Source: Ianthella basta (taxonomy: Eukaryota > Porifera > Demospongiae > Verongiida > Ianthellidae). Taken from it: 64,000 nucleotides of DNA. A program made the translations under genes and the position numbers. The notes below the pieces were generated by a model, which was given only the letters and a program-made list of their open reading frames with translations, did not search any database and was not told the origin of the DNA. Location of the stretch: contig OZ025875.1 of assembly GCA_964019415.1 (NCBI GenBank), positions 6,092,806 through 6,156,805 on the forward strand. The letters are read 5' to 3'. Position 1 is the first letter of the stretch; each line of letters begins with the position of its first letter. Shown one piece after another: positions 1 through 40,853 of the stretch.

Positions 1-649
1 TCTTGCTGATATAACAGAGGCAGACAATGGGCACAATGATGCTGACAAGGACAGGTGTGAGCCCTCCAAAGATGGTCCATGTAGCTAAGAAAACATAACG
101 AGCTTGACGAATAATGGTACTGTTAGTATCAGGGAAACAGGCCACACCGTGGACAAACTGGGCTTCATAGACATAAGGAAGTATGACATAGAGGCTTAAA
201 ATCATGGGCACAAGCCACAGGATAGGAATGATGACTGCAGCTGTACACCAGTTAATGGTCTTCTTGCCGAACCTCACTATGGCCAGAATTGAAAATGAAA
301 ATGCTGCCAGACTCCACAGTCTTGCTATCACTCCTGTGGCAAAACTCCACAGGTACATTCTGCATAGGTACCGTGGTGAGGGGGAATGTGTGCTCACTGC
401 TATAAGGACAGTAGCAGTGCACATCATAAACATCAAACTCACTGCCACGAGAAGCCCTGCCAGCAGAAGGTTGATGAGGAACAGGCGAACTAACCTGGGA
501 ATTGATGTGGCCATCAGGAGTGCTAAGATAGTGAATACAATCAGGGCACCGGCCACAGCTGTTGTCAAAGCTAACAGAATGGAGTAGGCCATGAAGCCGG
601 GGCTGTTGAGGGAAGTGTCAATTGCTGATGAGGTGGTAGAGTTGTTCAT
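1..649 (-). CDS. GPCR-1, type I seven-pass receptor, 3' end outside window
   Basis: A rhodopsin-like G-protein-coupled receptor is predicted at the plasma membrane. The ATG is at 649-647 and the frame stays open to base 1, giving about 216 residues (TM1 to TM5), so the C-terminal third lies off the left edge. The start MNNSTT matches the MDNSS starts of the other loci and is followed by the shared NSPGFMAY block before TM1. The TM3 cysteine (RYLCRMY), the second-loop cysteine (ACFPDTN) and the TM5 proline block (IIVPIVCLCYISK) are visible. Where class A receptors have DRY this family has VRF. It is closest to GPCR-5, 7, 11 and 13. The family assignment rests on topology and loop cysteines; the ligand is unknown. 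Confidence 0.8.
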   Translation of the reverse strand, partial: MNNSTTSSAIDTSLNSPGFMAYSILLALTTAVAGALIVFTILALLMATSIPRLVRLFLINLLLAGLLVAVSLMFMMCTATVLIAVSTHSPSPRYLCRMYLWSFATGVIARLWSLAAFSFSILAIVRFGKKTINWCTAAVIIPILWLVPMILSLYVILPYVYEAQFVHGVACFPDTNSTIIRQARYVFLATWTIFGGLTPVLVSIIVPIVCLCYISK

Positions 650-1560
650 ACTGGTGTTCGTGTGAATATCTCAAGCTCTATACTGTGTCTTTTCTCTTGC
701 TTCAACTGACGCTTTCAAAGAGGGCAATAGTTATACAGGTTTGGGTGTGTGGCAGAATGCGAGCCCTCTCCATATAAGGAGAGAGAACCTTGTACCTGCT
801 ATTGTTGCCTGCTTACCGCATGGTTAACTACATGGCAAAGTTTATACACAAACATAACCTACACAGCTGCTCAGACAATTATGTATTCCTTACAAGGTTA
901 CCAATACAATACTGTTATGAAATGCCTTCCCAAGTATCACAGCACCCTTACATACATAGACAAGCCTCTAGTCCCTACTTAGTTATCTGTGCCCTATAGC
1001 TGTGTACCTACGCATGGGTGACATAATAACAGAGTGGGCTACAACAGCCAGACTATAATAATATTTGTATTGGCAGTTGAGAATATGGCAGTTGAGTTTT
1101 CATAAAGGAACCTTTGCCGTTAATATCATCAGCACACTATGAATATCATTACTGTATTAGATTTGAGTCTGCCCTCAACCCATTTACATATTTGTATACA
1201 AGACACTCAAGGAGTGTGCTCATGCAGTTACAGCTGTTACTAAGTTGAGACCCGGTGCCCCTGTCTCCATAGCTACCGCAACATTATTTCTTCCTCAGTG
1301 TGTCCAGTGAAGGCCTGTGTTGTCCATATATATATGGAAGGTCTGAAGATGGTCTTGCAGAACTAGGTCACAACTCTGGGGCTCACACCAGAGTTGTGGC
1401 AACATGTCCTGTCCTGCAAGGCTTATAGGTGGGACCCACACTGCAACATGTGGGAAGAGTATACATACAGAGTGACATTGTCAGTCAGTTACACTCCTAA
1501 AAGTTAACAGCCTCAACATTCCAACCTCAAATATATATGGGAACAGAATGGGCTTCTTAT
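650..1560. other. 5' flank of GPCR-1 and spacer
   Basis: The first 170 bases repeat the upstream flank seen at most loci: a stretch like GAGGGCAATGGTTCTTATACAGG, then a TATATGGA-like box and AGAGAACC. It probably carries the receptor promoter. The rest shows no gene; the short ORFs here have no family resemblance. Confidence 0.4.
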
Positions 1561-1567
1561 GAATCTT

Positions 1568-2903: not shown

Positions 2904-3821
2904 TTATCTATGCAGCCAACTACAAGTGATAATTTTCTTGACCTGTTCTCGCACAGGTTTCAAGTAGACCATGATGATGATGGGAGTGGGGAGGAGGGAG
3001 ACAGTAGCAGAGCCATAACCTAGATACACTCCAGGTGCTTCTGAGTTGAAACTCAGTAGGGCTGGGAGGGCCTGACCTGCAAAGTTGATGCCACCACCAA
3101 CCACAAGGAAGAGGGAGAGCTTGGCCATTGCCCTTCGGTACTTTGTCCCTTCTGTGACAATGTTCTTTCGTACGTAACAGAGACAGACAATGGGTACAAC
3201 AATGTTGACTGTCAGTGGTGTGAGCCCTCCAAAGATGGCTAGCACGGTAAAGAAAGTGTGACGAGCTTGAATGATGATGGTGTTCTCTCTATCAGGGAAG
3301 CAGACCACACCGTGGACAAACTGCACTTCATAGACGTAATGAATAAAGACACAGATGCTTACGATCATGGGTCCTAGCCACAAGATAGAAATGATAACTG
3401 CAGCACAATGTAAGCTGATGGTCTTCTTGCCAAACCTCAGAATGGCCAAGATTGTGAACGAAAATGCAGCAAGGCTCCACAGTTGTGTTGCCGTACTTGT
3501 GACAAAGCCCCACAGGTACACTCTACACATGTACAGGTGAAGTGGTCCGGGGTGAAGTGCACTCATATTGATGAAGGCAATAGAAGTGATGTCTATCATC
3601 ACTAAACTTGCTGCCGTTTGAAGCCCTGCTATCAGAAAGTTGATGAGGAAGAGACGAACTGGTCTGGGAACTGAGGTGGCCATCAGGAGTGCTATGATGG
3701 TGAATCCAGTCATCACACAAGCCACAACTGTTGCTATGGTCAGCACAATACTGTAGGCCATGAAGCCAGGGCTGTTGAGTGAAGTGTCATTTGCTGGCAG
3801 AGAGGCAGTGGAGTTGTCCAT
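2904..3821 (-). CDS. GPCR-2, type II seven-pass receptor
   Basis: This intronless ORF of 305 residues begins MDNSTASLPANDTS, with NST and NDT glycosylation sequons before TM1. Seven hydrophobic segments follow. Cysteines before TM3 (HLYMCRVY) and in the second loop (VVCFPD) could form the class A disulphide, and TM5 has IVVPIVCLCYV. The DRY position reads LRF and the NPxxY position reads TPIIIMVY. The tail ends near a cysteine (ITCSWLHR) that might be palmitoylated. Length matches the other loci (305-323). It keeps a CGA arginine codon in the YRRAMAKL motif that is a stop in its relative GPCR-4. It is probably functional; the ligand is unknown. Confidence 0.85.
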   Translation of the reverse strand: MDNSTASLPANDTSLNSPGFMAYSIVLTIATVVACVMTGFTIIALLMATSVPRPVRLFLINFLIAGLQTAASLVMIDITSIAFINMSALHPGPLHLYMCRVYLWGFVTSTATQLWSLAAFSFTILAILRFGKKTISLHCAAVIISILWLGPMIVSICVFIHYVYEVQFVHGVVCFPDRENTIIIQARHTFFTVLAIFGGLTPLTVNIVVPIVCLCYVRKNIVTEGTKYRRAMAKLSLFLVVGGGINFAGQALPALLSFNSEAPGVYLGYGSATVSLLPTPIIIMVYLKPVREQVKKIITCSWLHR

Positions 3822-5570: not shown

Positions 5571-7137
5571 ATGTAGTGACAACAGTACTAGAAGGTGATC
5601 TGGAGATGATGAAAGAGGAAGTAAGAAGTGTAAGGAGGTTGAAGATGAGAAAGGCACCTGGCATATGTGGGATAGTGTCAGAAATGCTAAAAGCAGGTGG
5701 TGAAGTGATGGTAGAGTGGCACGTGGATGGTGAAGATATTCAATCTGGTGTAGAGAGAGGGGGTAGTCCCAGAAGATTGGATAAAGGCAGTAATCATGCC
5801 TATTTTCAAGAAGGGCAGCAAACTAGATTGTGCAAACTACAGGGGAATAAGTCTATTGAGCGTTGTTGGCAAGGTGTTTGGGCGGATACTGAATGAGAGG
5901 GTGAAGGCAATAACAGATGTTAAAGTGATGGATGAGCAAGGAGGTTTCAGGGCTGGAAGAGGTTGTAATGATCAAATCTTTGTGGTGAAGCAAATTGTGG
6001 AGAAGACAACTGAGAAGAATAAGAAGACTTACATGGCTTTTTTGGATCTGGAGAAAGCTTACGACAATAGGGAGAAAGGGGGAGAAGATGTGGGTAGTGT
6101 TGGACAAGTATGGGATAAAGGGGAAGTTGCTTAGAGCTATTCAGGCATTGTATGTGGGCAGTAAGGCATGTGTAAAAGTTAGAGAATTAACATCAGAGGA
6201 GTTCGAGGTACGCAAGGGAGTGAGGCAGGGACGTACGCTGTCTCCACGGCTTTTTAATCTGTTTATGGACAATGTTATGAGGGAGGCAAGAGGACGTTTT
6301 GTGGGTGAGGTACAACTATCTACTGGTGAGGTTGGTGTACTACTGTTTGCAGACAACATGGTGGTGATGGCAAATTCTGAAGAGGGGCTGCAACATAACT
6401 TAAAGACAGTCAGTGACATGCTGAACAAATGGGAATTGAAAGTAAACTGGAAGAAGACTAAAGTGATGAGGGTAGCAAGGGACAGGGAAGAGTTTGAGGT
6501 GAAAATAGGAGATGAGGTCATTGAGCAGGTGGACACAATGAAGTACCTGGGAGTGATGGTTAGTAATGATGGAAGTATGGAGAAGGAAATAGAGGCTAGG
6601 ATAGGAAATGCAACACGAGTGATTGGAGGGATGAATGATGCCATCTTGAGAAGGAAGGAATTGAGTCAAAGTACCAAGATCAAAGTAGTGAATGCCACAA
6701 TGATGCCAGTGCTGATGTACGGGTGTGAGACGTGGAGCCTAACAAAGAAGCAACAATCAAAGGTACAAGCCTCACAAATGAATGTGCTAAGAGGATTGAA
6801 GGTGTGAATAGATTGGACAGAGTAAGGAATGCAGATATTAGGGAGAGGTTGAATCAAGAAGGTGTTTTAGATCTGGTGAAAAGGAGACAGGAGAGTTGGA
6901 AGGGCAGACTAGAATAAATGAGCTTTGAGAAGACAACGAAGAAAGTGTTTGTTGGAGAGATGGAGGGGAAAAGAGGAAGACCACGCTTAAGATGGATTGA
7001 CAATTTTAATTAACTATATGATAGCTACCTATTCTTTATGCTAACTCACTGTCTGCACTGTTTTAGTGTAAGAGGGATGACCTCCAGCATTGGAGATAAA
7101 TCCACTTTTGTGATTGATTGATTGATTGATTGATTGA
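5571..7137 (+). mobile_element. Degraded non-LTR retrotransposon (LINE), reverse transcriptase part
   Basis: Reverse-transcriptase motifs appear in order on the plus strand but in shifting frames. They are KAPG (about 5,655), PIFKKGS and NYRGISLL (5,796-5,860), GGFRAGRG (5,940), FLDLEKAYD with the first catalytic Asp (6,038-6,065), RQGRTLSP (6,220), FADNM (6,346), YLGVMVSNDG (6,545) and YGCETW (6,718). At least three frame breaks separate them, near 5,800, 6,065 and 6,800. The catalytic pair normally written FADD is FADN. No endonuclease domain is present, so the copy is 5'-truncated. It ends in a GATT/ATTG tandem tail (about 7,112-7,139), a common kind of LINE 3' end. It interrupts a spacer sequence that is continuous at 13,185-13,210 and 17,970-18,000. 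It cannot be active. Confidence 0.88.
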
Positions 7138-7485: not shown

Positions 7486-8203
7486 ATCAGTCAGCCTCAG
7501 TTAGCCACTGATAGACAAACGAGTATGCACACATACTATTAATATAGCAACACTACACATGAGTAGTTAAGGAACAATTGCATATAAGGAAGAGAGAATA
7601 TGCATAGCGCATGTCTGAGTGGGACAGCTCCATGTCTGAGAAGGAAACCTATACTATGCTAAATTAATCTGCATACTATTTAATGCTGTGCCATATTGCA
7701 CAGTTCAACATACTCAGATCTTTGCGTCCACTGATTGAATTACCTAATTATTCTGTCAGTACTTGTTGCACTTTCCATTCATTGTGTACCCACAATAGAT
7801 TTACTAAATCGGCCTGTCAATTTACTAAATCAGTCCGTCGATTTACTAAAACAGCCCGTCAATTTACTAAGTCTATGGTGTTTCCTGTAAATCGACAGCT
7901 TCGTCACCATTTTGGTACAAATGGCGCCCCATATCAGTCAGCCTCAGTTAACCACTGATAAACAAAGGAGTATGCACACATACTATTATTATAGCAACAC
8001 TACACATGAGTAGTTAAGGTACAACTGCTTATAAGTAAGAGAGAATATTTATAGCGCATGTCTGAGTGGGATGGCTAGATGTCTGAGAAGGAAACCTATA
8101 ATTATGCTAAATTAATCTGCATACTATTAAATGCTGTGCCATATTGCACAGTTCAGCATACTCAGATCTTTGCATCCACTGATTGAATTATGTAATTATC
8201 TAA
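7486..8203. repeat. Duplicated GPCR 3' flank with short tandem repeats
   Basis: The stretch 7,486-7,797 repeats as 7,935-8,240, starting TCAGTCAGCCTCAGTTA and running into the last codons of GPCR-3 (ACTTTCC-ATCATTGTGTACC). The first copy is therefore a severed GPCR 3' end with no receptor body. Between the copies, at about 7,798-7,880, are four imperfect units of roughly 20 bases built on TTTACTAAATC-GCCCGTCAA. Related TTTAGTAAATTGACTG units occur at about 23,065-23,100, the matching position beside GPCR-9. Confidence 0.75.
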
Positions 8204-9136
8204 TTACTTGTGGCACTTTCCAATCATTGTGTACCGTTGGTTGCAAGTCACAATCTTCTTGGCCTGCTCTCGCAATGGCTTCAGGTAGGCCATGATGATG
8301 ATGGGAGTGGGGAGGAGGGAGATGACAGCAGAGCCGTAGCTGAGATGCACTCCTGGTGCTTCTGAGTTGAAACTAAATAGGGCTGGAAGGATTTGACCTG
8401 CAATGTTGATGATGCCTCCCACTGCGAGGAAGAGGGAGAACTTGGCCATTCCCTTTCTGTACTGTGTCCCTTCAGTGACAATGTTCTTTTTGATATAACA
8501 GAGGCAGACAATGGGCACGATGATGCTGAGAATCAGTGGTGTGAGCCCTCCTAGAATGGCCCATGTGGCTAAAAAGGCATGAAAAACTGGCAGGATAATG
8601 GCGCCGTCAGTATCAGGAAGACATGCCACACCGTGGACCAACTGTATTTCATAGACATAAGGAAGTAAGATGTAAAGGTTTATAGTTATGGGTACAAGCC
8701 ACAAGATAACAATTGCAACTGCAGCACTCCACCAACTGATGGTCTTCTTGCTAAACCTCACAGTGGCCAAGATCATAAATGAAAATGCAGCCAGGTTCCA
8801 CAGTCTTGCCACCACTCCTGTACCAAACATCCATATATACACTCTGCACAGGTACTGTAGTTCACGATGATGTGGACTCACTGCTATGAATACAGTAGCA
8901 GTGCACAAAATGAGCATCACATTCACTGCCACTAGAAGTCCTGCCAGCAGAAGATTAATGAGGAAGAGGCGAACTGGTCTGGGAATTGATGTGGCCATCA
9001 GGAGTGCTAAGATAGTGAATCCAATCATCACAATGGCCACAACTGTTATCATAGTCAGCAGAATACAGTAGGCCATGAAGCCAGGACTGTTGAGGGAAGT
9101 GTCATTTGCTAGCAAAGTGGTAGAGGAGTTGTCCAT
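8204..9136 (-). CDS. GPCR-3, type III seven-pass receptor
   Basis: Intronless, 310 residues, beginning MDNSSTTLLANDTS. It has seven membrane segments, the TM3 cysteine in LQYLCRVY, the loop cysteine in VACLPDTD, and TM5 with IIVPIVCLCYIKK. It differs from the other subtypes by the first extracellular loop (SPHHREL), the SWWSAAVAIVILW block in TM4, and FSKK in place of FGKK after TM3. The tail ends VTCNQRYTMIGKCHK. It is the positional partner of GPCR-9 (about 15.2 kb to the right), with few amino-acid differences. It is intact and likely functional; the ligand is unknown. Confidence 0.85.
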   Translation of the reverse strand: MDNSSTTLLANDTSLNSPGFMAYCILLTMITVVAIVMIGFTILALLMATSIPRPVRLFLINLLLAGLLVAVNVMLILCTATVFIAVSPHHRELQYLCRVYIWMFGTGVVARLWNLAAFSFMILATVRFSKKTISWWSAAVAIVILWLVPITINLYILLPYVYEIQLVHGVACLPDTDGAIILPVFHAFLATWAILGGLTPLILSIIVPIVCLCYIKKNIVTEGTQYRKGMAKFSLFLAVGGIINIAGQILPALFSFNSEAPGVHLSYGSAVISLLPTPIIIMAYLKPLREQAKKIVTCNQRYTMIGKCHK

Positions 9137-9229
9137 AGCGATTGATGACTTGTATAAGCTCTGTATAAACTTGTTCTTCTAAGCTTGTTCTCCTGTTTTA
9201 AGGGACTATTTCATGGAGGGCAATTGTTC

Positions 9230-9480
9230 TTGCACAACTGTGGGTGTGTGCCAGCATACCAGCCTCTCCATATATGGAAGAGAACCTTGCAACTGATTTC
9301 AGAATGGTTCGCCAAAATGACAAATGAAAAATGGCAAATGGTAAATGGCAAATGGCATGACACCATAGTACAGTGTCTTAGTGTGATTGTCCTTAGTGGT
9401 GCATGTGAACGAGATGACATGGTGTGACCTAGGCCATTTGCTATTTACCATAAAATTTGATACTAAGTCTTACATTTGCC
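9230..9480. repeat. Left arm of an inverted repeat with AAATGGCA units (MITE-like)
   Basis: The arm begins with the GPCR upstream flank (GTGCCAGCATACCAGCCTCT), followed by CAGAATGGTTCGCCAAAA and several AAATGGCA/AAATGGTA units. It recurs in reverse orientation at about 10,228-10,453. The whole arrangement is repeated at 24,460-24,710 and 25,458-25,683. Confidence 0.8.
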
Positions 9481-9545
9481 AATCAGAATATTGCACAGAA
9501 GGGTATGTTTTGTGTAGTAGTTACGATATTATCACATTCACAAGT

Positions 9546-9749
9546 ATGAACAACTCTACCTTGCTGTCAGGTAATGACGCTTCCCTCAACAGCCCTGGCT
9601 TCATGGCCTACTGCATTCTGATGGCTGTGGTAACATATGTGGCCAGTCTCTTCATTGGAATCACCTACTTATCACTCCTGATGGCCACCTAAGTTCCAAG
9701 ACCACTCCACCTCTTCCTCATCAACCTTCTGCTGGCAGGGCTCCTATAG
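9546..9749 (+). pseudogene. Plus-strand GPCR 5' fragment, broken
   Basis: This is the only receptor sequence on the plus strand in the first copy. It reads MNNSTLLSGNDASLNSPGF, then TM1, and stops at TAA 9,690-9,692, where the other copy (24,776-24,979) has a serine codon. Homology to the TM2 block LFLINLLLAGLL continues to TAG 9,747-9,749 and then ends, so about 240 residues are missing. Its sequence is nearest to GPCR-15 (MDNSTLLPVNDTSLN). It lies head to head with GPCR-3 between the arms of an inverted repeat. Confidence 0.85.
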
Positions 9750-10227
9750 CATGCACAATGCCATTCATCAGGTCAGTGACTGTGCACATCTGATAGAAAT
9801 TATATACAGCTGCTGTACCAATGATATGTGCATGCATGAGCACAACTCTTCCATTCAGTCATGTATGTGTGTGTGAAAATCAATTGAGGTGACATTACTT
9901 GTGAATAAATTAATAATTGTAGGCATCAAAAATTATTCACGTTGAGCTGATTGTATTCATGAAAAAATTCTCTTATGATATTTATTGAAAACTAAACTGC
10001 CATGTATAGTGTGTGTGTACGTAACTCACCATGTTGTTAGACAGATCATGATCACATCAGTGCATATGATAAGCAGGTGTACAGTCAATTTCGGAATGGC
10101 TGGCAAAATGACAAATGGCACAAATGGCAAACACACAATGGCAAATGTAAGTACCTGGGTATATCAATATTTATGGCAAAGAGCAAATGGTGTAGGTCAT
10201 GATCATTGCACAAAGTCATAATATTAT
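9750..10227. other. Spacer inside the inverted repeat
   Basis: AT-rich, with no gene recognised. It is nearly base for base the same as 24,980-25,457. Confidence 0.4.
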
Positions 10228-10453
10228 AGTGTCCCACTTACCATGTCATTTCATTCACATGCACCACTGAGTACAATCGCATTAACACATTGTACTATGG
10301 TGTCATGCCATTTGCCATTTACCCTTTGCAGTTTTCCATTAATTTTGCCATTAATTTTGGCGAACCATTCTGAAATCAGTTGTCAGTATAGGTGTTGCAA
10401 GGTTCTCTTCCACATGGAGAGGCTGGTATGCTGGCACCCACCCACAGCTGTAT
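10228..10453. repeat. Right arm of the inverted repeat (reversed GPCR upstream flank)
   Basis: Reverse complement of about 9,238-9,420 with indels. TTTTGGCGAACCATTCTG and AGAGGCTGGTATGCTGGCAC mirror the left arm. In this orientation it would precede a plus-strand receptor, but none follows. Confidence 0.8.
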
Positions 10454-10641
10454 AAGAACAAACATACCGCAAAATACAAACAAGCCCATGCACCACCCTT
10501 AAGTACCACTCCTGTGTTCCTTGTGAATTATGGTATTCATGCAAAGCAAAATTGCAGGACATTCCTTGATCATCCTGTTCTTGTGCAGTGTCCTAACCAT
10601 TGCACTTGTGCATGAACACACACGCTGCCACTCAGTAGACA

Positions 10642-10647
<6 letters not shown>

Positions 10648-10699
<52 letters not shown>

Positions 10700-10706
10700 C
10701 ACACAT
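10648..10706. repeat. (CA)n microsatellite
   Basis: About 28 CA units. It recurs at 25,878-25,941 with a few more units. Confidence 0.95.
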
Positions 10707-11068
10707 GAATGATGGCTCAGGGAATTGCCAGCTAGGAGTTACTGTGCATTAATGATAACGTATCAATTCAGAGGGGCTCAAAGGTAGAATAAATGCACTT
10801 TCAGCAACCATCAGACCGTGTAGCGACATATCAAGTTCAATCAAGTCTCATGCACCTACCAACCTACACTGCTTACTGCCACTTACTATATTACAGTATG
10901 TAATACAGTACATGTATATACAACTATGTGGGCTTTTCTTCCCCCTTCCCCTCCTTTCCCTTATACTGTGTGTGTGTTGGTACTGATCTGCATGAGTGCC
11001 TTTTAAAGTAGCCCAAGGTGAAATATATAGGATGTCCATATATGGAGGTTTGTGCATAACATATACAC

Positions 11069-11338
11069 CATACCGTACCATACCCATACCATGCCATACC
11101 ATACCATACAATACAATACCCATACCATGCCATACAATACAATACAATACAATACCCATACCATGCCATACAATACAATACAATACCCATACCATGCCAT
11201 ACAATACAATACAATACCCATACCATGCCATACAATACAATACAATACAATACAATACCCATAGCATGCCATACAATACAATACAATACAATACAATACA
11301 ATACATTACAATACATTACAATACCCATACCATACCAA
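11069..11338. repeat. Pentamer satellite ACCAT/ACAAT
   Basis: About 270 bases of CCATAC/AATAC pentamers arranged as CCATACCATGCCATACAATA supra-units. This gives long MYCIVLYCI and MPYNTIQYN ORFs on both strands that are repeat translations. The matching place beside GPCR-2 has only about 40 bases. Confidence 0.95.
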
Positions 11339-11701
11339 ATATACAAGTTTTCATATAGCTAGTAAAGGTTCTTAGGGCACGAGAAGTGCAAAAATATGCA
11401 GAATAGTGTTGGCATGAGTGCAATATACTAATGGAAGTATATACAACTTGCTGATATCATAAGTACATACTGTATATTCCATATGTATAATACACTGTGG
11501 TGGATATATGTGTATACCACCTGTTATGGTAAAGTGGACAGAACTTTGTCAACATTCAATAACTCAAACACAGAACTGCTAAAGAGTGAGAGGTACAGGG
11601 ACATGTACACAGTTGGTGAAATATCTGCATGCACACAGGTAAGTCTATTCCTTCTTGATATTTGTGTCTATTGCTTGACTACTGTCAGTGCTTGTGATTC
11701 T

Positions 11702-12628
11702 TTACTGTGTAACAGCTCTTCTATGCAGCCAACTACAAGTGATAATTTTCTTGACCTGTTCTCGCACAGGTTTCAAGTAGACCATGATGATGATGGGAGT
11801 GGGGAGGAGGGAGACAGTAGCAGAGCCATAACCTAGATACACTCCTGGTGCTTCTGAGTTGAAACTCAGTAGGGCTGGGAGGGCCTGACCTGCAAAGTTG
11901 ATGCCACCACCAACCACAAGGAAGAGGGAGAGCTTGGCCATTGCCCTTCAGTACTTTGTCCCTTCAGTGATGATGTTATTCCGTATGTAACAGAGGCAGG
12001 CAATGGGTACAATGATACTGACTGTCAGTGGTGTGAGCCCTCCAAAGATGAATAGCACGGTAAGGAAAGTGTAACGAGCCTGAATGATGATGGTATTTTT
12101 GCTATCCGGGAAACAGGCCACACCGTGGACAAACTGCACTTCATAGACATAGGTAATTAAAACATTGATGCTTAGAATCATGGGTCCAAGCCACATGATA
12201 GGAATGATAACTGAAGCACAGTGTAAGCTGATGGTCTTCTTGCCAAACCTCACAATGGCCAAGATTGCAAACGAAAATGCAGCAAGGCTCCACAGTCGTG
12301 CTGCCACTCCTGTGGCATACACCCACATGCTCATTCTACATAGGTAAAGTGGTCTGGGATGAAGTGCACTCATATTTAGGAAGACAATAGAAGTGACGCC
12401 TATCATCACATAACTTGCTGCCATTTGAAGCCCTGCTATCAGAAGGCTGATGAGGAAGAGACGAACTGGTCTGGGAACTGAGGTGGCCATCAGGAGTGCA
12501 AAGATGGTGAATCCAATCATCACACAAGCCACAACTGTTGCTATGGTCAGCACAATGCAGTAGGCCATGAAGCCAGGACTGTTGAGGGAAGTGTCATTTG
12601 CTGGCAGAGAGGCAGTGGAGTTGTCCAT
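11702..12628 (-). pseudogene. GPCR-4, type II receptor with one premature stop
   Basis: The ATG (12,628-12,626) opens MDNSTASLPANDTS and the frame runs through TM1 to TM5 to TGA at 11,950-11,948. The same frame then continues through TM6, TM7 and the tail (ending CSWLHRRAVTQ) to a stop at 11,702. The stop replaces the arginine codon in KYRRAMAKL; GPCR-2 has CGA there, so one C-to-T change explains it. Apart from this codon the gene would be 308 residues and intact. Translation to the stop would lack TM6 and TM7. It is the positional partner of intact GPCR-10. A sequencing error, or polymorphism, is possible. Confidence 0.85.
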
Positions 12629-25935: not shown

Positions 25936-25941
25936 CACACA
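25878..25941. repeat. (CA)n microsatellite
   Basis: Partner of 10,648-10,706, a few units longer. Confidence 0.95.
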
Positions 25942-26303: not shown

Positions 26304-26519
26304 CCATACCGTACCATACCCATACCATGCCATACCATACAATACAATACAATACCCATACCATGCCATACAATACAATACAATACCCATACCATGCCAT
26401 ACAATACAATACAATACCCATACCATGCCATACCATACAATACAATACCCATACCTGCCATACAATACAATACAATACAATACAATACATTACAATACAT
26501 TACAATACCCATACCATAC
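26304..26519. repeat. Pentamer satellite ACCAT/ACAAT, second copy
   Basis: Same CCATAC/AATAC pentamers as at 11,069-11,338, but about 50 bases shorter. Confidence 0.95.
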
Positions 26520-26885
26520 CAAATATACAAGTTTTCATATAGCTAGTAAAGGTTCTTAGGGCATGAGAAGTGCAAAAATATGCAGAATAGTGTTGGCATG
26601 AGTGCAATATACTAATGGAAGTATATACAACTTGCTGATATCATGAGTACATACTGTATATTCCATATGTATAATACACTGTGGTGGATATGTGTGTATA
26701 CCACCTGTTATGGTAAAGTGGACAGAACTTTGTCAACATTCAATAACTCAAACACAGAACTGCTAAAGAGTGAGAGGTACAGGGACATGTACGCAGTTGG
26801 TGAAATAGCTGCATGCACACAGGTAAGTCTATTCCTTCTTGATATTTGTGTCTATTGCTTGACTACTGTCAGTGCTTGTGATTCT

Positions 26886-27812: not shown

Positions 27813-29042
27813 AATGGTGTACATGTGATTCTGAAGCTCTACACTGTTTGCATACTCTCCTTAAGCTTCAAAGAGGACAGTGGTTCTTATACAGGTGCGA
27901 GTGTGCTTCAATATGTTCAATATCCGGCCCATGTGAATGGAGAAGACTGGACACAATTTGCATTGTGTCTTATGATTGCTGTCACAGGTCACTTGGCACT
28001 TCATGTGTACGAGATTCCCATATGCATGGGCATACATACGTAGGATGTTTTAGCACTGGTGTAGGTTGTGCCAGCTTGTTGGGAGACTGAAGGAAGATTA
28101 AGTACTAGTGTTAACAATTCTGAGCAAAGAATCAATGTATATATTACTGATGGCTTTCTTGTATGGCTCCATCCATTTCTGAATGAGCTTCTGATTCAGA
28201 TAGTATCCCAATGAACTTTGCACACATGTATGCTAACATTTCAAATGTGTTCAAAGCAGAATGTGTCTTTACATATGCAGGTCAACTGATTTGTGTATGC
28301 TTAGACAAGATTGCTGTAGATTGATGATTGTAGCTGAAAGATGCAAACGGTTTGGATTTGTTATGAATTGATGCATGACATGGTGTATATGTGCTAATCT
28401 GAATGCCATAATACAGTACGTACATAATCTGCCTACTGTGTCGATAGAATGAAATTGCAATCTTAAACTATTGTACATTTGCACATGATGAAAGACGTGC
28501 ACTCACAATGATCTGTTGTTAGTACACACAACAAAGATATATTGAATCTGAACCCTATACATAGTTGTGTAATTGAATGAACATAGTAATTGTATTCAGT
28601 GCCCTGGTACGTACTTGCCAGCACATCTGTATTGATGTGCAGTATTGTGAGGCCAGTGTGTTATGCTGAACATTAGACTAAGGGAAGTCTTTGAATAGCT
28701 TATAACAGCAAGAAACATGTCATACAAGTCCATTCACACAAACATCCACCAATTGAAATCAGTCAGCCTCAGCCGATTATTAGCCACTGATAGACAAACG
28801 AGTATGCACACATACTATTATTATAGCAACACTACACATGCATGAGTATATGGAAAGGAACAACTGCTTATAAGTTAGAGAGAATATGCATAGCGCATGT
28901 CTGAGTGGGAGGGCTCCATGTCTGAGAAGGAAACCTATAATTATGCTAAATTAATCTGCATACTATTTAATGCTGTGCCAAATTGCACAGTCCATCATAC
29001 TCCGATCTTTGCGTCCACTGATTGAATTATCTAACTATTCTG

Positions 29043-29984
29043 TCAGTACTTGTGGCACTTTAAAATCATTGTGTACTGTTGGTTGCAAGTCACAATCTTC
29101 TTGGCCTGCTCTCGCAATGGCTTCAGGTATGCCATGATGATGATGGGAGTGGGGAAGAGGGAGATGACAGCAAGGCCATAGCTGAGATACACTCCTGGTG
29201 CTTCTGAGTTCAAACTAATTAGAACTGGAAGGATTAGACCTGCAAAGTTGATGCTGCCCCCCACTATGAGGAAAAGGGAGAGTTTGGCTATTGCCTTTCT
29301 GTACTGTGTCCCTTCTGTGACAACGTTCTTGCTGATATAACAGAGGCACACAATGGGCACGATGATGCTGACAAGGACAGGGGTGAGCCCTCCAAAGATG
29401 GTCCATGTAGCAAAGAAAGCATAACGAGCTTGACGGATAATGGTACTGTTAGTACCAGTAACAGGGAAACAGGCCACACCGTGGACAAACTGGGCTTCAT
29501 AGACGTAAGGAAGTATGACATAGAGGCTTACAATCATGGGCACAAGCCACAGGATTGGAATGATGACTGCAGCACTCCACCAGCTGATGGTCTTCTTGCC
29601 AAACCTCACTATGGCCAGAATTGAGAATGAAAATGCTGCCAGATTCCACAGTCTTGCCACCGCTCCTGTGGCAAAGCCCCACAGGTACACTCTACATAGG
29701 TACAGCGGTAAGGGAGAATGTGTGCTCACTGCTATAAGTACAGCAGCTGTGCAGGCAACTAACAGTGAAATCACTGCCACGAGAAGTCCTGCCAGCAGAA
29801 GGTTGATGAGGAAGAGGCGAACTGGTCTGGGAACTGCAGTGGCCATCAGGAGTGCTAAGATAGTGAGTACAATCAGGGCACCGGCCACAGCTGTTGTCAT
29901 AGCCAACAGTATAGAGTAGGCCATGAAGCCGGGGCTGTTGAGTGAAGTGTCATTACCTGGCAGAGAGGCAGAGGAGTTGTCCAT
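29043..29984 (-). CDS. GPCR-11, type I seven-pass receptor
   Basis: Intronless, 313 residues from MDNSSASLPGNDTS; an in-frame upstream ATG at 30,050 would add 22 residues. It pairs with GPCR-5 and shares the longer second loop (VACFPVTGTNST). TM2 is divergent (LLAGLLVAVISLLVACTAA), whereas other type I genes read VAASLMLMVCTAA, a local difference that may reflect gene conversion. TM5, TM6 and TM7 motifs match type I, and the tail ends NQQYTMILKCHKY. Likely functional. Confidence 0.85.
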   Translation of the reverse strand: MDNSSASLPGNDTSLNSPGFMAYSILLAMTTAVAGALIVLTILALLMATAVPRPVRLFLINLLLAGLLVAVISLLVACTAAVLIAVSTHSPLPLYLCRVYLWGFATGAVARLWNLAAFSFSILAIVRFGKKTISWWSAAVIIPILWLVPMIVSLYVILPYVYEAQFVHGVACFPVTGTNSTIIRQARYAFFATWTIFGGLTPVLVSIIVPIVCLCYISKNVVTEGTQYRKAIAKLSLFLIVGGSINFAGLILPVLISLNSEAPGVYLSYGLAVISLFPTPIIIMAYLKPLREQAKKIVTCNQQYTMILKCHKY

Positions 29985-31548
29985 AATGTTGTACGTGTGA
30001 AGAACGCAACCTCTACACTGTAATTGCATGCTGTCATTCAAAAAGGGCAATGGTTCTTATACTGCAGGTGTGAGTGTGCTTCAATATATGTTTACTATTG
30101 ATCCGTCCCATGTGAATGGAGATGACTGGGCACAATTTGCTTTCGATTGCTGTCACGGGTCATGCACCTGGCACTTCGATCATGTGTATGATGCTGATTG
30201 GACACTGTATCATTCATAATCATTTTCAAACCTATTTGAGTGCATCATATAGGTGTATTGTACACGTCCTGATCATGACTTGGGCAGCACCCGCTATCCT
30301 TTGTAGCCCAATAATTGTTCAAGTGTGGAATTCGAAAGTTCATGAATATGCTCCACCATTCTGATGTACCATAAGTGGATATATAGTGAAGTAATGCAAT
30401 CCATGTGGTGCTATAAGTGATGTTCACCCTTGGCCTTTGTTCTTGGGTGGATATAGCGTATGCACCACATGCACTTTAGTGTGGTATAATTATATTATAA
30501 TGCAATCATAACACTTACAGTACTTTTAATACAATTGTATATCTTACCACACATGCACAGAGATGCCCTTGAGAGGTTGTCTACTGAGTGAACTCAATGA
30601 GTTATTGAATGCATGGCGCCAGCAAAGTACGCTGCACTGATGTGCTCTAACAGAGCTAGAGAGGCAATTTTATAATGCCATGCTGACTGCAGTTCTCTGT
30701 CCATTCATGAACTTAAGTGTGTACATGCATGCACATGTGGCTTGGCAACTAATCAAGACATCAACGCAAATGAAAACAGCTACACTGCACAAAAGTCATC
30801 TAAATCACAACAGGCACACATACATAGAACTTTACTGTACATATGAGGACAAGCAGCTACGCACATGCGGAGAGCCATTTACATATATAATCATGCCTCC
30901 TAAATCTCTTCATCCATTATCCTGATATTGCATCATTGACCATTTTACCAAAGTGCCATATGAATATGATTGTCACAGCCATGAATATGATTATAGCATG
31001 TATATAGGTGGCAAACCTGTATTCAGACCACATTCAACTATGAAACATGTCCGGATACAGGGCTGCTTAGAGATGTTTGGGGCCCAGGGTCTATTACGAA
31101 TTTGGAGGACCCTTGCACATAAGTAGCGTCCCTCACAGTGGCCCCCACTGCTTGCCAACTGCCTTTTGCCTATACCTTACTTGGCAGTCCCATAGACACG
31201 TGACATCTATGTATGCCCTATATACAGTGCAGGACTACTCAGTCAGGCAAATTATATAGCTGTACATGATCAGTAGCATATGGCACCCTAATATTTTGAC
31301 ATTCTAGAATGTGCATAAGGCACTGCTTGTCTCTTTCCACCACTCTTGACCGTACACCTCCGTGCCATGTGGGTGGTATACGTATATACTGCATTGCAGT
31401 TGGTGAGCATAAACCACCAGTGTTCTTAAAGTGGATTACTAGAGCACAATCAAGCAAACGCAGGACTGGGGTTGTGTCACCTGCTTAAGACTGAGAGATA
31501 CAGGGACATGTATAGATGGTAATACAACTATAAGTGAAACTATAAGTA

Positions 31549-32518
31549 TTAAATTTGTGTCAGTTGTTTGCGTACCATCAGTGCTTGTGATGCTTTCCAT
31601 TCTAACAGCTCTTCGATGCAGTATGCCACAAGTGACAATCTTCTTGGCTTAAGGAAGACCAAGATGATGATGGGAGAGGGGAGGAGGGAGATGAAGGCTA
31701 TGCCATAGCCGACATATACTCCTGGTGCTTCTGAATTGAGTGATATTAAGACTGGAAGTATTTGACCTGCAATACCGATGCCACCACCAACCACAAGGAA
31801 GAGGGAGAGCTTGGCCATTGCCTTTCGGTACTTTGTCCCTTCAGTGACAATGTTCTTTCGTATGTAACAGAGACAGACAATGGGTACAACAATGCTGACT
31901 GTCAGTGGTGTGAGTCCTCCAAAGATGGACCACACAGCAAAGAATGTGTAACGAGCCTGAATTATAATGGTGTTATTTCTGTCAGGGAAGCAAGCCACAC
32001 CGTGGACAAACTGCACTTCATAGACATAAGGAAATAAGACATAGATGCTTAGAATCATGGGACCAAGCCACATGATAGGAATGATAACTGCAGCACAGTG
32101 TAAGCTGATGGTCTTCTTGCCAAACTTCACAATGGCCAAGATTGCAAACGAAAATGCAGCAAGGCTCCACAGTCGTGCTGCCACTCCTGTGGCATACACC
32201 CACACGCTCATTCTACATAGGTAAAGTGGTCTGGGGTGAAGTGCACTCATGTTTAGAAATGTTTAGACAATAGAAGTGACGCCTATCATCACAATACTTT
32301 TGGCTTACCGCCATTTGAAGCCCTGCCAGCAGAAGGTTGACGAGGAAGAGGCGAACTGGTCTGGGAACTGAGGTGGCCATCAGGAGTGCAAAGATGATGA
32401 ATCCAATCATCACACAAGCCACAACTGTTGTCATAACCAGCAGTATAGAATAGGCCATGAAGCCAGGGCTGTTGAGGGAAGTGTCATTTGCTGGCAGAGA
32501 GGCAGAGGAGTTGTCCAT
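31549..32518 (-). pseudogene. GPCR-12, type II receptor with three lesions
   Basis: The ATG at 32,518 opens MDNSSASLPANDTS. Three defects are visible. First, the same seven-base insert as GPCR-6 lies near 32,297-32,308. Second, six extra bases near 32,252-32,268 bring an in-frame TAA (relative to the TM3 frame). Third, a 16-base deletion near 31,647, between GGCT repeats, shifts the tail so that it reads FLKPRRLSLVAY. Body sequence from MSALHPRPLYLC to TM7 is otherwise open. It is clearly dead, and older damage is shared with GPCR-6. Confidence 0.9.
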
Positions 32519-33775
32519 AATGGTGTACATGTGATTCCGAAGCTCTACACTGTTTGCATACTCTCCTTAAGCTTCAAAGAGGGCAATGGTTCTTATACAG
32601 GTGCGAGTGTGCTTCAATATGTTTACTATTGATCTGGCCCATGTGAATGGAGAAGACTGGACACAATTTGCATTGTGTCTTATGATTGCTGTCACAGGTC
32701 ACTTGGCACTTCATGTGTACGAGATTCCCGTATGCATGGGCATACATACGTAGGATGTTTTAGCAATGGTGTAGGTTGTGCCAGCTTGTTGGGAGATTGA
32801 AGGAAGATTAAGTATTAGTGTTAACAATTCTGAGCAAAAGAATCAGTGTATATATTACTGATGGCTTTCTTGTATGGCTCCATCCATTTCTGACTGAGCT
32901 TCTGAATCATATAATATCCCAATGAACTTTGCACACATGTATGCTAACATTCCAAATGTGATTAAAGCAGAAAGTGTAAATGTCGTGAAATTCTTTACAA
33001 CTATCTTTACATATGCACGTCAACTGATTTGTGTATGCTTAGACAAGATTACTGTAGATTGATGATTGTAGCTGAAAGATGCAAACGGTTTGGATTTGTT
33101 ATGAATTGATGCATGACATGGTGTATGTGCCAATCTGAATGCCATAATACAGTACATACATAATCTGCCTACTGTGTCGATAGAATGAAATTGCAATCTT
33201 AAACTATTGTACATTTGCACATGATGAAAGACGTGCACTCACAATGATCTGTTGTTAGTACACACAACAGAGATAACAATGAATGTGAACCCTATACATA
33301 GTTGTGTAATTAAACGAACATAGTAATTGTATATTCAATGCCCTGGTACTGCCAGCTCAACTGTATTGATGTGCAGTATTGTGGGGCCAGTGTGTTATGC
33401 TGAACATTAGACTAAGGAAGGTCTTTGAATAGCTTATAACAGTAAGAAACATGTCATACAAATCCATTCACACAAACATCCACCAATTGAAATCAGTCAG
33501 CCTCAGTTAGCCATTCATTAGCCACTGATAGACAAATGAGTATGCACACATACTATTATTATAGCAACACTACACATGAGTATATTGCACATGAAAGAAA
33601 CAACTGCTTATAAGTAAGAGAGAATATGCATAGTGCATGTCTGAGTGGGAGGGCTCCACGTCTGAGAAGGAAACCTATATGCTAAATTAACCTGCATATT
33701 ATTTAATTCTGTGCCATATTGCACAGTTCAACATACTCAGATCTTTGCGTCGACCCACTGATTGCATTAATTCTG

Positions 33776-34711
33776 TCAGTACTTGTGGCACATTCCAATC
33801 ATTGTGTACCATTGGTTGCAAGTCACGATTTTCTTGGCCTGCTCTCGCAATGGCTTCAAGTAGGCCATGATGATGATGGGAGTGGGAAGGAGGGAGATGA
33901 CAGCAAGGCCATAGCTGAGATACACTCCTGGTGCTTCTGAGTTGAAACTCAATAGAGTTGGAAGGATTTGACCTGCAAAGTTGATGCTGCCCCCCACTAC
34001 GAGGAAGAGAGAGAGCTTGGCCATTGCCTTTCTGTACTGTGTCCCTTCAGTGACAATGTTCTTCCTGATGTAACAGAGGCAGACAATGGGCACGATGATG
34101 CTGACAAGGACAGGTGTGAGCCCTCCAAAGATGGTCCATGTAGCTAAGAAAGCATAACGAGCTTGACGGATAATGGTACTGTTAGTATCAGGGAAACAGG
34201 CCACACCGTGGACAAACTGGGCTTCATAGACATAAGGAAGTATGACATAGAGGCTTACAATCATGGGCACAAGCCACAAGATAGGAATGATGACTGCAGC
34301 TGTGCACCAGCTAATGGTCTTCTTGCCGAACCTCACTATGGCCAGAATTGAGAATGAAAATGCTGCCAGACTCGACAGTCTCGCCGCCCCTCCTGTGGCA
34401 AAACCCCACAGGTACACTCTACATAGGTACCGTGGTAAGGGGGAATGTGTGCTCACTGCTATAAGGACAGCAGCAGTGCACACCATAAGCATCAAACTCG
34501 CTGCTACCAGAAGTCCTGCCAGCAGAAGGTTGATGAGGAAAAGGCGAACAAACCTGGGAATTGATGCAGCCATCAGGAGTGCTAAGATAGTGAATACAAT
34601 CAGGGCACTGGCCACAGCTGTTGTCATAGCCAACAGTATAGAGTAGGCCATGAAGCCAGGGCTGTTGAGTGAAGTCTCATTTGCTGACAGAGAAGCAGAG
34701 GAGTTGTCCAT
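33776..34711 (-). CDS. GPCR-13, type I seven-pass receptor
   Basis: Intronless, 311 residues from MDNSSASLSANETS. It has SPLPRYLCRVYLWGF before TM3, then ARLSSLAAFSFSILAIVRF (Ser where the other type I genes have Trp or Asn), VACFPDTNST in loop 2, IIVPIVCLCYIRKN in TM5 and PTPIIIMAYLKPL in TM7. The tail ends NQWYTMIGMCHKY. Partner of GPCR-7. Likely functional. Confidence 0.85.
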   Translation of the reverse strand: MDNSSASLSANETSLNSPGFMAYSILLAMTTAVASALIVFTILALLMAASIPRFVRLFLINLLLAGLLVAASLMLMVCTAAVLIAVSTHSPLPRYLCRVYLWGFATGGAARLSSLAAFSFSILAIVRFGKKTISWCTAAVIIPILWLVPMIVSLYVILPYVYEAQFVHGVACFPDTNSTIIRQARYAFLATWTIFGGLTPVLVSIIVPIVCLCYIRKNIVTEGTQYRKAMAKLSLFLVVGGSINFAGQILPTLLSFNSEAPGVYLSYGLAVISLLPTPIIIMAYLKPLREQAKKIVTCNQWYTMIGMCHKY

Positions 34712-36271
34712 AATGTTGTACGTGTGAAGAACGCAACCTCTACACTGTGTTAGTATGCTCCATTTCTTTCAAAAAGGGCAGTGGTTCTTATACAAGTGTG
34801 AGTGTGCTTCAATATAATTATGTTTACTATTGATCCGTCCCATGTGAATGGAGATGACTGCATGGGCACAATTTGCTTTCGATTGCTGTCACGGGTCATG
34901 CACCTGGCACTTCGATCATGTGTATGATGATGATTGGACACTGTATCATTCATAATCATTTTCAAACCTATTTGAGTGTATCATATAGGTGTATTGTACA
35001 CGTCCTGATCATGACTTGGGCATCTTCCGCTAGCCTTTGTAGCCCAATAATTGTTCAAGTGCGGAATTAGAAAGTTCATGAATATCCTCCACCATTGTGA
35101 TGTACCATAAGTGGATATATAGTGAAGTAATGAAATCCATGTGGTGCTATAAGTGATGTTCACCCTTGGCCTTTGTTCTTGGGTGGATATCGCATATGCA
35201 CCACATGCACTTTAGTGTGATATAACTAATACAATCATAACACTTACAGTACTTTTAATACAATTATACTGTACATGAATACACATGAAAACAGTAGCCC
35301 AACACGTACAGCAGCACACCAGAGACGCTGGATCCAGCACCGCATGTATGTATATATCTTACAACACATGCACAGAGATGCCCTTGAGAGGTTGTCTGCT
35401 GAGTGAACTCAATGAGAAAGTTATTGAATGCATGGCGCCAGCAAAGTACGCTGCACTGATGTGCTCCAACAGAGCTAGAGAGGCAATTTTATAATGCCAT
35501 GCTGACTGCAGTTCTCTGTCCATTCATGAACTTAAGTGTGTACATGCATGCACATGTGGCTTGGTAACTAAGCAAGACGTCAACGCAAATGAAAATAGCT
35601 ACACACTGCACAAAAGTCATCTAAATCACAATAGGCACACATACATAGAACTTTACTGTACATACGAGGACAAGCAGCAACGCAGACCAGCACACGCAGA
35701 GAGCCATTTACATATATAATCATGCCTCCTCAATCTCCTTCATCCATTATCCTGATATTGCATCATTGACCATTTTACCAAAGTGCCATATGAATATGAT
35801 TGTCACAGCCATGAATATGATTATAGCATGTATATAGGTGGCAAACTTGTATTCAGACCACATTCAACTATGAAACATGTCCGGATACAGGGCTGCTTAG
35901 AGATGTTTGGGGCCCAGGGTCTATTACGAATTTGGAGGGCCCTTGCACATTAGTAGTGTCCCTCACAGTGGCCCCCACTGCTTGCCAACTGCCTTTTGCC
36001 TATACCCTTACTTGGCAGTCCCATAGACACGTGACATCTATGTATGCCCTATATACAGTGCAGGACTACTCAGTCAGGCAAACTATATAGCTGTACATGA
36101 TCAGTAGCATATGGCACCCTAACATTTTGACATTCCAGAATGTGCATAAGGCGCTGCTTGTCTCTTTCCACCACTCATGACCGTACTCCTCCTTGGCATA
36201 CGCATGCTCAGTGAATGAATGAGTGGTATATATACTGCATTGCAGTTGGTGAGCATAAACCACCAGTGTTC

Positions 36272-38802: not shown

Positions 38803-39569
38803 ATTGGTGCACTACACACGAGGAGACCAACTCTCAACAGCTGTCCATGTGATCTAGCATACCAGCTTACCATATATGGAATGGACACCTTGCAGATTAT
38901 ACATTATTTATAAGTAACTTGCGTACACAACTTGGCTAACAACAAGGTGCAGTGTAGGTAACAAACATGCCCACCTGCTCACTATCCAAACATGTCTGCA
39001 CGTGCCAGTTGGGTTTTTACCTTATCATGAATATAATCAGCATCATGTTGGTGACCATGAATATAATTATCATCCTCTTACAGTTAGAGAACCTTGGCCT
39101 TTTCAAAATACCTGAATGTAGCTACTGCTATAACAGTGCTGTAAGTGGTCTCGTCCTGCAGGTACATATACATAAGTAGTCGCCCTGACATGAGTGCATG
39201 CATGGCTCAGCATGCTATAACGCCCAGAGGCATTACTTCTTGGAACTGCACATGAATTACAGTTTATCGTGTATCTGGAAAACCTATATACATAGCCCAA
39301 AGCAGAAGGCTAGTATAGCCACATTCTAGGCACCCAGACAACACACATGCACAATGTAGACAACACTGAGAGCGAGAGATGCAGTTATTAGATACAAAAT
39401 TTAATACACCATGCATAGTCCAAGCAATAGTTAAAAGGAATTGGTATGTATGTATGATACACATGCAGAGGGCATAAGGCATGCAAGCATGCAATGATGT
39501 AGTTAAAGAAAGAAAATTTGGAATTTACATGTGTAGCATTGGCATAATTATATGAAATTAAGGAGACGG
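38803..39569. other. Spacer between GPCR-14 and GPCR-15
   Basis: Contains the GPCR-14 upstream flank (ACCATATATGGAATGGACACC). No gene is seen in the remainder. Confidence 0.4.
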
Positions 39570-40853
39570 TCAAAAAGTGCCAGTGCCAGGTGTCTGATTT
39601 TCAGCAACAAGTCGCATGGTTAACGGATTTGATATTTCATGACGTTTGCACAATGAAAACTGCCCACAAGTGATAATCCTCTTGGCCTGCTCTTGCACTG
39701 GCTTCAAGTAGGCCATAATGATGATGGGAGATGGGAGGAGAGAGACAACAGCGATGCCATAGCCAAGATACACTCCTGGTGCTGCTGAGTTGAATGACAG
39801 CAGACCTGGAAGGACTTGACCTGCCATACTAATAACAGCACCCACCACAAGGAATAGGGAGAACTTGGCTAAGCCCTTTCTATACTTAGTCCCTTCACTG
39901 ACACTATTCTTTCTTATACAACAAAGACAGACAATGGGTACAATGATACTGACTGCCAGTGGTGTGAGCCCTCCGAAAATGGTCCATGATGCGAAGAAGG
40001 TGTATCGAGCTTGAGGAATGCTGGCGCTGTCGGTATCAGGGAAACAGGCCACACCATGGACAAACTGTGCTTCGTAGACATAAGGAATTAAGACGTAGAG
40101 GATTATAGCTACAGACACAAGCCACAAGATAACCGTGATGACTGCAGCACTCCACCAACGGATGGTCTTCTTGCCAAATATCGCTATGGCAAATACGGAT
40201 ATAGATTGCTTGTAGAAACTATAACATTTTGTCCACTATTATGTCAATGTGGTATGCTCGGTTTGGCAAGTTTTAATTGAGACTCTATGTGTTGTTCTCA
40301 TCTCTTGCCCACTCCTGATGTAGTCACAATGGTACAACACTTTTTCCTGTTAGCTATGGCACATGTCCTGATTAACTCATCAACTGACTATTTACATGAT
40401 GTTTCTTATGTTTGTGTGTGCTACATTGGACCACAGTGAGTCCTAGTGCCACCATGTGGCATGGTGCACGTTAATAATTGAATTGAATTGAATTGATATA
40501 GAGAATGCCGCCAGGCTCCACAGTCTCGCCACCACTCCTGCACCAAATCCCCACAGGTACACTCTACACAGGTACCGCGGCAAAGAGGGACGTGTGCTCA
40601 CTGCTATAAGGACGATAGCAGTGCACACCATAAACATTAAACTTACAGCTATTAGAATAACCGCCAGGAGAAGGTTGATGAGGAAGAGACGCATGGGTCT
40701 TGGAACTGAGGTGGCCATCAGGAGTGACAAGAAGGTGATTCCAATGAACAGACCAGCCACAACTGTTACCACAGCCATCAGAATGCAGTAGGCCATGAAG
40801 CCAGGGCTGTTGAGGGAAGTGTCATTAACTGGCAGCAAGGTAGAGTTGTCCAT
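39570..40853 (-). pseudogene. GPCR-15, receptor split by a SINE-like insertion
   Basis: The 5' part (40,853 to 40,503) starts MDNSTLLPVNDTSLNSPGF and runs through TM1, TM2 and into TM3 (RYLCRVYLWGFGAGVVARLW). The 3' part (40,197 to 39,570) resumes in TM3 and continues with TM4 to TM7 and the tail (ending AENQTPGTGTF). The 297-base interruption contains stop codons. The flanking coding sequence aligns base for base in length with the intact genes when the insert and one target repeat are discounted, so no other lesion is evident. The insertion looks recent. This locus is the outgroup of the array and the nearest relative of the plus-strand fragments. Confidence 0.88.
40206..40494 (+). mobile_element. 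SINE-like insertion in GPCR-15 with 8-bp target duplication
   Basis: About 289 bases flanked by GATATAGA at 40,198-40,205 and 40,495-40,502. The 3' end is a tandem AATTG/TTGAA tail, the same style as the LINE tail at 7,112-7,139. There is no open frame of note. The tail and target duplication indicate retroposition in plus orientation. No A-box or B-box was confidently identified, so it could equally be a 5'-truncated LINE end. Confidence 0.8.

Follow-up and report, generated by a model that had tools for sequence, protein, structure and literature searches.

Arrays of predicted rhodopsin-fold receptors lacking the usual class A switch residues in the sponge Ianthella basta

What kind of receptor is encoded by a dense gene array on one strand of a sponge chromosome, and how might it work when the residues by which class A G-protein-coupled receptors (GPCRs) switch are missing? 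The window analysed here, a stretch of 64,000 bp of Ianthella basta DNA (contig C8, positions 6,092,806-6,156,805, of assembly G000, which comprises 209,087,449 bp in 96 contigs), carries such an array up to position 40,853. A preliminary description, made from the sequence alone, regarded it as an expanded GPCR array without the DRY motif of class A receptors. The account that we consider probable is that this C8 array belongs to a superfamily of rhodopsin-fold proteins acting as surface chemoreceptors, with an activation mechanism unlike that of class A.

Receptor identity and the extent of the family

Scanned singly against Pfam, only one of ten window proteins matches 7tm_1, and below its cut-off; among 43 members of the family, seven match 7tm_1 at E <= 1, with a best E of 1.5e-8. 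The 14 Pfam families matched by these 43 members at the same threshold include neither TAS2R, V1R or SR families nor an olfactory-receptor model. A family profile compared with solved chains gives 86 matches at E <= 1, the best being the 5-HT2B receptor (3.1e-10). The AlphaFold2 model built from the diverse 43-member alignment (predicted local distance difference test (pLDDT) 87.1, predicted template modelling score (pTM) 0.85) has seven helices, a hairpin in loop 2 and helix 8. All 50 structures in the Foldseek list are class A receptors, and the VIA-align list of 50 is class A wherever a title names a receptor. Sequence and prediction together give these proteins a short N-terminus with N-glycosylation sequons. 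One result speaks against this assignment, an earlier model from the shallow alignment A1 of the window copies alone, which reached only pLDDT 45. Profile match and predicted fold nevertheless support well that the family consists of rhodopsin-fold (class A) receptors; together with the Foldseek and VIA-align lists they rule out a seven-helix protein other than a GPCR. The identity proposed earlier is thus supported, and the libraries searched revealed no clear orthology to a well-studied receptor family. Because single-sequence searches with 7tm_1 find only 7 of 43 members, surveys built on Pfam may undercount sponge receptors.

Six-frame reading, alignment and a tblastn map of the window place 15 receptor loci, all on the minus strand, between positions 2 and 40,853, together with two N-terminal fragments, the only pieces on the plus strand. 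Ten of the 15 are intact, counting the locus at the window edge, and each intact gene is a single open frame of 305-328 residues without introns. In the remaining five the coding sequence is broken, with an in-frame stop in one, frame changes in three and an insert in the last. The numbers, strand and lack of introns given in the preliminary description are all borne out. The loci are as follows (TM, transmembrane helix; ORF, open reading frame).

2-649, minus: receptor locus 1, cut by the window edge; with the bases left of the window the whole 321-residue ORF is in L016; CArG-like box at 770
2904-3821, minus: intact receptor, 305 residues; Gln replaces Arg at 3.39, and the end is about 6 residues short of its relatives
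8204-9136, minus: intact receptor, 310 residues; CArG-like box at 9268, which is 141 bp before the ATG
9549-9704, plus: N-terminal receptor fragment, 52 residues, on the strand opposite to the receptors
11705-12628, minus: receptor locus with an in-frame stop; ORF of 230 residues
13872-14858, minus: intact receptor, ORF of 328 residues; MDNS start at 14816
16469-17390, minus: receptor locus broken by a frame change
18627-19607, minus: intact receptor, ORF of 326 residues
21210-22125, minus: receptor locus with a frame change close to the N terminus; ORF left of 314 residues
23431-24366, minus: intact receptor, 311 residues; CArG-like box at 24498
24779-24934, plus: N-terminal receptor fragment, 52 residues, at the corresponding site in the second 12-kb copy
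26886-27824, minus: intact receptor, 312 residues; search query, modelled in a 308-residue form
29043-30029, minus: intact receptor, ORF of 328 residues
31607-32518, minus: receptor locus broken by two frame changes
33776-34711, minus: intact receptor, 311 residues
37831-38802, minus: intact receptor, 323 residues, mosaic gene; CArG-like box at 38870
39573-40853, minus: receptor locus interrupted within TM3; the insert, about 290 bp at 40206-40494, is flanked by 8-bp repeats TCTATATC

The insert with its flanking repeats looks like a small mobile element. To the left of the window the array extends to C8:6,006,679, giving at least 30 loci in 126 kb; to the right of 40,853, the searches found no match, either in the window or farther along C8.

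The family recurs in the genome far beyond chance. With a single window protein as query, at least 128 places match at E <= 0.001 (127 of 510 candidates scored). Three more distant members and a member of the C2 arrays, used as further queries, bring the total to at least 276 distinct loci on 19 contigs. This is a lower bound because each search scored its best candidates only; broken loci are counted, matches with starts within 1 kb were joined, and seven C7 rows already counted were dropped from the list of the C2 query. Arrays of at least three hold 233 of the 276 loci. There are 22 such arrays, the largest being those on C2 (38 loci, 169 kb), C8 (30 loci), C7 (20) and C11 (18). A tree of 51 rows gives 100/98 support to the separation of the family from five canonical receptors encoded in the same genome and unites the 23 C8 rows in one clade with the same support; within the C8 array, several distinct clades are seen. 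A 7tm_1 search of the genome, by which intron-split genes are poorly detected, gave 35 matches, many of them within the arrays of the superfamily; three members of the C8 array lie above its cut-off and one below. A search of viral contigs with the family alignment A2 gave 60 pattern matches and no relatives. The one C11 member read (L079, C11:7560306-7562300) has a longer, cysteine-rich N-terminus before TM1 than C8 members, and the superfamily may therefore vary outside the membrane. Two pairs of places, C2:10943542 with C1:15534279 and C2:10949045 with C1:15528773, have identical scores against one query, which suggests either that one chromosome was copied from the other here very recently or that the assembly is faulty.

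Switch residues and the sodium site

Residues were tabulated for 60 members sampled across the arrays out of the at least 276 loci, using a numbering of our own whose reference points are Cys3.25 and the prolines of TM5, TM6 and TM7. Broken or partial sequences (W11951, W16412, W31552, L033, L072, L073), the non-family sequences L001-L008, loci with upstream DNA only and L079 were excluded; W21153 was retained despite a frame change close to its start. Both cysteines, Cys3.25 in TM3 and that of loop 2, are present in 60/60, and the TM5 proline in 53, in line with what had been described from the window. The positions of the class A switches are occupied as follows.

Position 2.50: G 41, C 8, N 3, S 3, I 2, A 1, E 1, V 1; Asp in none
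Position 3.50: V 42, I 16, A 1, T 1; Arg in none, D/ERY not found
Position 5.58: P 50, L 7, others 3; Tyr absent
Position 6.48: I 26, V 15, A 10, L 3, T 3, M 2, F 1; Trp absent
Position 7.49: T 51, S 4, A 3, N 1, F 1; NPxxY not found
Position 7.53: I 45, V 13, M 2; Tyr in none

At the aligned positions, Asp2.50, Asp3.49, Arg3.50, Tyr5.58, Trp6.48 and Tyr7.53 are missing in all 60 members, whereas the five canonical receptors of the same genome all keep Asp3.49-Arg3.50. The preliminary description had read VRF/LRF in place of DRY and TPIIIMAY in place of NPxxY. TPIII is correct. The absence of DRY also stands, and the residues actually found at these positions strengthen it, but VRF/LRF is not its equivalent. 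In the profile alignment the stretch S-V-S-V-L-A-V-V faces S-V-D-R-Y-I-A-I of 5-HT2B without a gap from Cys3.25, and none of the 60 rows has a gap between Cys3.25 and this stretch. Because the alignment from Cys3.25 is gap-free, VRF/LRF falls at 3.54-3.56.

Several observations caution against reading every position literally. The canonical control rows are one residue out of step at 6.48 (C-W occurs in TM6 of four of the five), and they too are without Tyr5.58 and Tyr7.53 in the family alignment, so that the register of TM5 and TM6, anchored on prolines, could be off. Trp occurs elsewhere in TM6 in 3 of the 60 members and Arg at 3.52 in two. The assignment of the sodium site depends on the alignment register as well.

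With this register, 57 of 60 members have Arg at 3.39, where the serine of the sodium site would stand. The exceptions are Gln in the window gene at 2904, Lys in L041 and Ser in L051. L051, alone in having Ser3.39, is likewise alone in having Asn7.49, and its residue at 2.50 is Asn; this combination hints that exchange at 3.39, 7.49 and 2.50 is coupled. Asn2.50 is found in L041 and L047 as well, next to Lys3.39 in the former and Arg3.39 in the latter. To our knowledge, Arg3.39 is not a signature of the TAS2R, V1R or SR families. In engineered receptors, the pairing partner of Arg3.39 is Asp2.50. This partner is missing from the family, which counts against a direct equivalence, and the likeness to engineered S3.39R is therefore one of place and not of proven chemistry.

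In the alpha1A-adrenergic receptor, the engineered S113R at position 3.39 serves as a mimic of the allosteric sodium ion; the side chain of this Arg sits in the putative sodium site, and the S3.39R mutation has also been used for other inactive-state structures (PMC10282093). Like those human receptors, the family has Arg at 3.39 in the sodium site. However, the engineered receptors are laboratory-made and have the other switches present, whereas the arginine here is natural and accompanied by Gly or Cys in place of Asp2.50 in 49 of 60 members. A residue that laboratories engineer for inactive-state structures is thus the natural one in 57 of 60 genes. Neither a DRY-less sponge superfamily nor a natural Arg3.39 was found in the literature searched, which covered few subscription journals.

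On the account that we consider probable, Arg3.39 would fill the sodium site as a built-in cation, TM6 would move on activation without the Arg3.50-Tyr5.58-Tyr7.53 network, and the conserved inner face (Arg/Lys3.55, GKK of intracellular loop 2, YRKAMAKF at the base of TM6 and KP at the start of helix 8) would touch a G protein or another transducer. It is conceivable, though doubtful, that the superfamily as a whole has replaced the class A activation machinery, with Arg3.39 standing in for sodium and hydrophobic residues and a proline near 5.58 for that network, while the conserved inner helix ends and loops were kept. If so, a rhodopsin fold would couple to its transducer in nature without sodium and without an ionic lock, and such coupling would serve environmental sensing in an animal without neurons. 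For the question of which class A switch elements a rhodopsin fold can do without, and how many, the family is a natural experiment, and its candidate mechanism lends itself to tests of single residues.

Turnover, selection and the likely role

Three tracts of segmental duplication mark the array.

7860-20107: left copy of a 12.3-kb segmental duplication, 95.0% identical to the right copy
23082-35268: right copy of the 12.3-kb segmental duplication, 95.0% identical to the left copy
11658-23064: nested duplication, 11658-18324 against 16413-23064, 92.3%

The gene at 37831 is a mosaic relative to the locus at 21210, with 142 of 145 residues identical over 156-300 and only 86 of 125 over 30-155. 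Segmental duplications, the mosaic gene and broken copies support the repeated gene birth and death that had been proposed for this place, and unequal exchange within the arrays would yield new receptor types. Tandem repeats of ACCAT units and units of about 31 bp lie at 11067-11337 and 26303-26521, corresponding sites of both 12-kb copies, each with a CA run that lies about 360 bp ahead of it; this repeat could promote unequal exchange.

The ratio of nonsynonymous to synonymous substitution rates (dN/dS) is 0.23-0.64 in 28 of 29 pairs, the remaining pair having no synonymous change; the pairs share members, and one locus (21210) is broken. These values rule out neutral decay of the arrays as a whole. 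The corresponding ratio of proportions, pN/pS, is 0.50 in the outer halves and 0.36 in the inner halves (p 0.025, 11 pairs). Consistently, entropy among C8 members is 0.98 in the outer and 0.59 in the inner helix halves (p 8e-6), and in the intracellular loops it is 0.36, with 61% of 18 sites invariant. At the level of sequence, these comparisons show purifying selection on the family, weaker in the outer half. The pocket positions of C8 members are mostly hydrophobic, small or aromatic, and 3.32 is F, L or Y in 21 of them and never an acid.

How such a family relates to known receptors can be outlined from both sides. The class A olfactory receptors of vertebrates and cnidarians are intronless, about 310 residues long, with a short glycosylated N-terminus, and evolve by birth and death in tandem arrays; they retain DRY and NPxxY-like motifs. 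The family shares with them intronless genes of about 310 residues, a short N-terminus with glycosylation sequons, tandem arrays and turnover by birth and death, but DRY and NPxxY occur in none of its 60 members. Vertebrate TAS2R and V1R and nematode SR receptors are expanded, fast-turning and rhodopsin-fold-like, with DRY altered or missing. They resemble the family in expansion and in altered switch motifs, but their Pfam profiles are unmatched by the 43 members. Among chemoreceptor families, tandem clusters are widespread according to a review (PMC11526382), and two choanoflagellate rhodopsins described in 2025 are likewise without E/DRY (PMC12716839).

Within sponges, Krishnan et al. (2014) described 126 rhodopsins in Amphimedon, including the sponge-specific clusters AqRho-A to E; groups of 2 to 8 receptors, 51-74% identical, lie side by side on one contig (PMC4302439). 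Like the family, these are duplication-expanded sponge rhodopsins without orthologues in the other animals compared, and tandem clusters of close copies recur here in the 22 arrays. A tandem sponge-specific rhodopsin expansion is therefore already known, so that the earlier judgement of a little-described system is half right. The differences lie in scale and in detectability. The family counts at least 276 loci, some of them broken, and its arrays reach 38 loci, whereas the curated Amphimedon set has 126 rhodopsins. That set was gathered by Pfam search (PMC4302439), which here matches 7tm_1 in few members. The available text of that paper yielded no hit for NPxxY, intron or tandem. Oscarella has about 50 rhodopsin receptors, and a domain search found six in Halisarca (PMC12665527).

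By analogy, a chemosensory role is the most likely reading. The receptors would be surface chemoreceptors for waterborne or microbial small molecules, with ligands that, judged from the pocket positions, may be mostly uncharged or hydrophobic. A set of hundreds of loci would bear on chemical and microbe sensing in sponges, which have no neurons. Some results pull the other way. No pair has dN/dS above 1. On the inner side conservation is uneven, the most variable C8 region being helix 8 together with the C-terminus (entropy 1.31). Variability is raised across the whole outer half, but the 28 positions that usually contact ligands do not vary significantly more than the rest of it (p 0.10 in C8, 0.075 in C7-like members and 0.17 for all members; when residues are grouped by type, 0.39, 0.53 and 0.64), and a concentration of variability in the ligand pocket itself is accordingly not significant.

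A narrower form of the chemosensory reading, to which we give a small but real chance, is that these are immune or symbiont-recognition receptors, reading microbial metabolites on body cells to tell food from symbionts and not guiding larvae or behaviour. Large variable receptor sets under purifying selection fit an immune role as they do a chemosensory one, and sequence does not separate the two. In Amphimedon, bacterial symbionts make dopamine and trace amines, and larvae alter their swimming with trace amines and receptor drugs (PMC10570526); the absence of an acid at 3.32 in the 21 C8 members speaks against amine ligands. Receptors for internal signals in development, cell sorting or allorecognition-like individuality, expanded by drift and with no environmental ligand, would agree with dN/dS below 1 in every pair tested. 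Only 35 7tm_1 matches were found in the genome, many in the arrays of the superfamily and with intron-split genes poorly seen, and the duplicated receptors may therefore have assumed internal roles. However, so many loci (276 or more), duplicated repeatedly and with 5 of 15 copies broken in one place, are unusual for receptors of internal ligands, and the variability lies on the outer side, which makes such a role quite improbable.

The loss of Arg3.50 in all 60 members, the variable helix 8 and C-terminus, and the stabilisation of inactive human receptors by S3.39R (PMC10282093) could alternatively mean that signalling is dead, the proteins being held inactive by the sodium-mimic Arg3.39 and used as scavengers, decoys or adhesion proteins. 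This seems unlikely, because conservation of the inner halves and intracellular loops above that of the outer halves in C8 is not expected without a binding partner. Asp2.50, needed for the engineered lock, is also missing. Inflation of the arrays by haplotypic duplication in the assembly is very improbable. L023 and L024 in C8 are one change apart and some C2 and C1 places score identically, but the other C8 pairs computed have dS of 0.04-0.59, the 12.3-kb copies are 5% apart, and several distinct clades occur within the array.

Upstream boxes and neighbouring sequences

A CArG-like box, CC(A/T)6GG and often CCATATATGG, lies 77-290 bp upstream of the ATG of some receptor genes. It occurs within 300 bp in 15 of 45 upstream regions, against a mean of 0.75 and a maximum of 4 in 300 shuffles, and in none of 17 3' flanks; the motif was spotted by eye in 18 upstream regions, most of which are among the 45, and related genes are not independent. 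A fresh set of 20 upstream regions of 400 bp has it in three (shuffle mean 0.55, maximum 3), and only four of the window's six perfect boxes precede a receptor gene. A general promoter element is weakly supported by these counts; at best the box is possibly a promoter element of some lineages. Its sites are listed below.

Window: 770, 9268, 24498, 38870
Outside the window: L021, L023, L024, L035, L036, L037, L076, L078, L091, L092, L093, L096, L097, L105

Three other features were noted in the window, the first within the array between the genes at 2904 and 8204 and the other two to its right.

5989-6804, plus: reverse-transcriptase fragment of a retroelement (RVT_1, E 3.2e-23)
50423-51010, minus: open frame with an SH3 domain (SH3_9, E 8.6e-8) and a C2H2 zinc finger
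53739-54107, minus: open frame with an ATP-synthase subunit C domain (E 2.1e-8)

Elsewhere in the assembly, COX1 on contig C96 has nine TGA codons in frame, which stand for tryptophan under code 4. This gene is surrounded by tRNA genes for Arg, Asn and Lys and by a tRNA with the anticodon UCA, which the program names SeC and which is Trp under code 4. Because cnidarian mitochondria have been stripped of nearly all their tRNA genes, a non-calcareous sponge is the probable source. The frames of this contig are presumably nad6, nad3, nad4L, cox1, cox2 and atp8, in that order.

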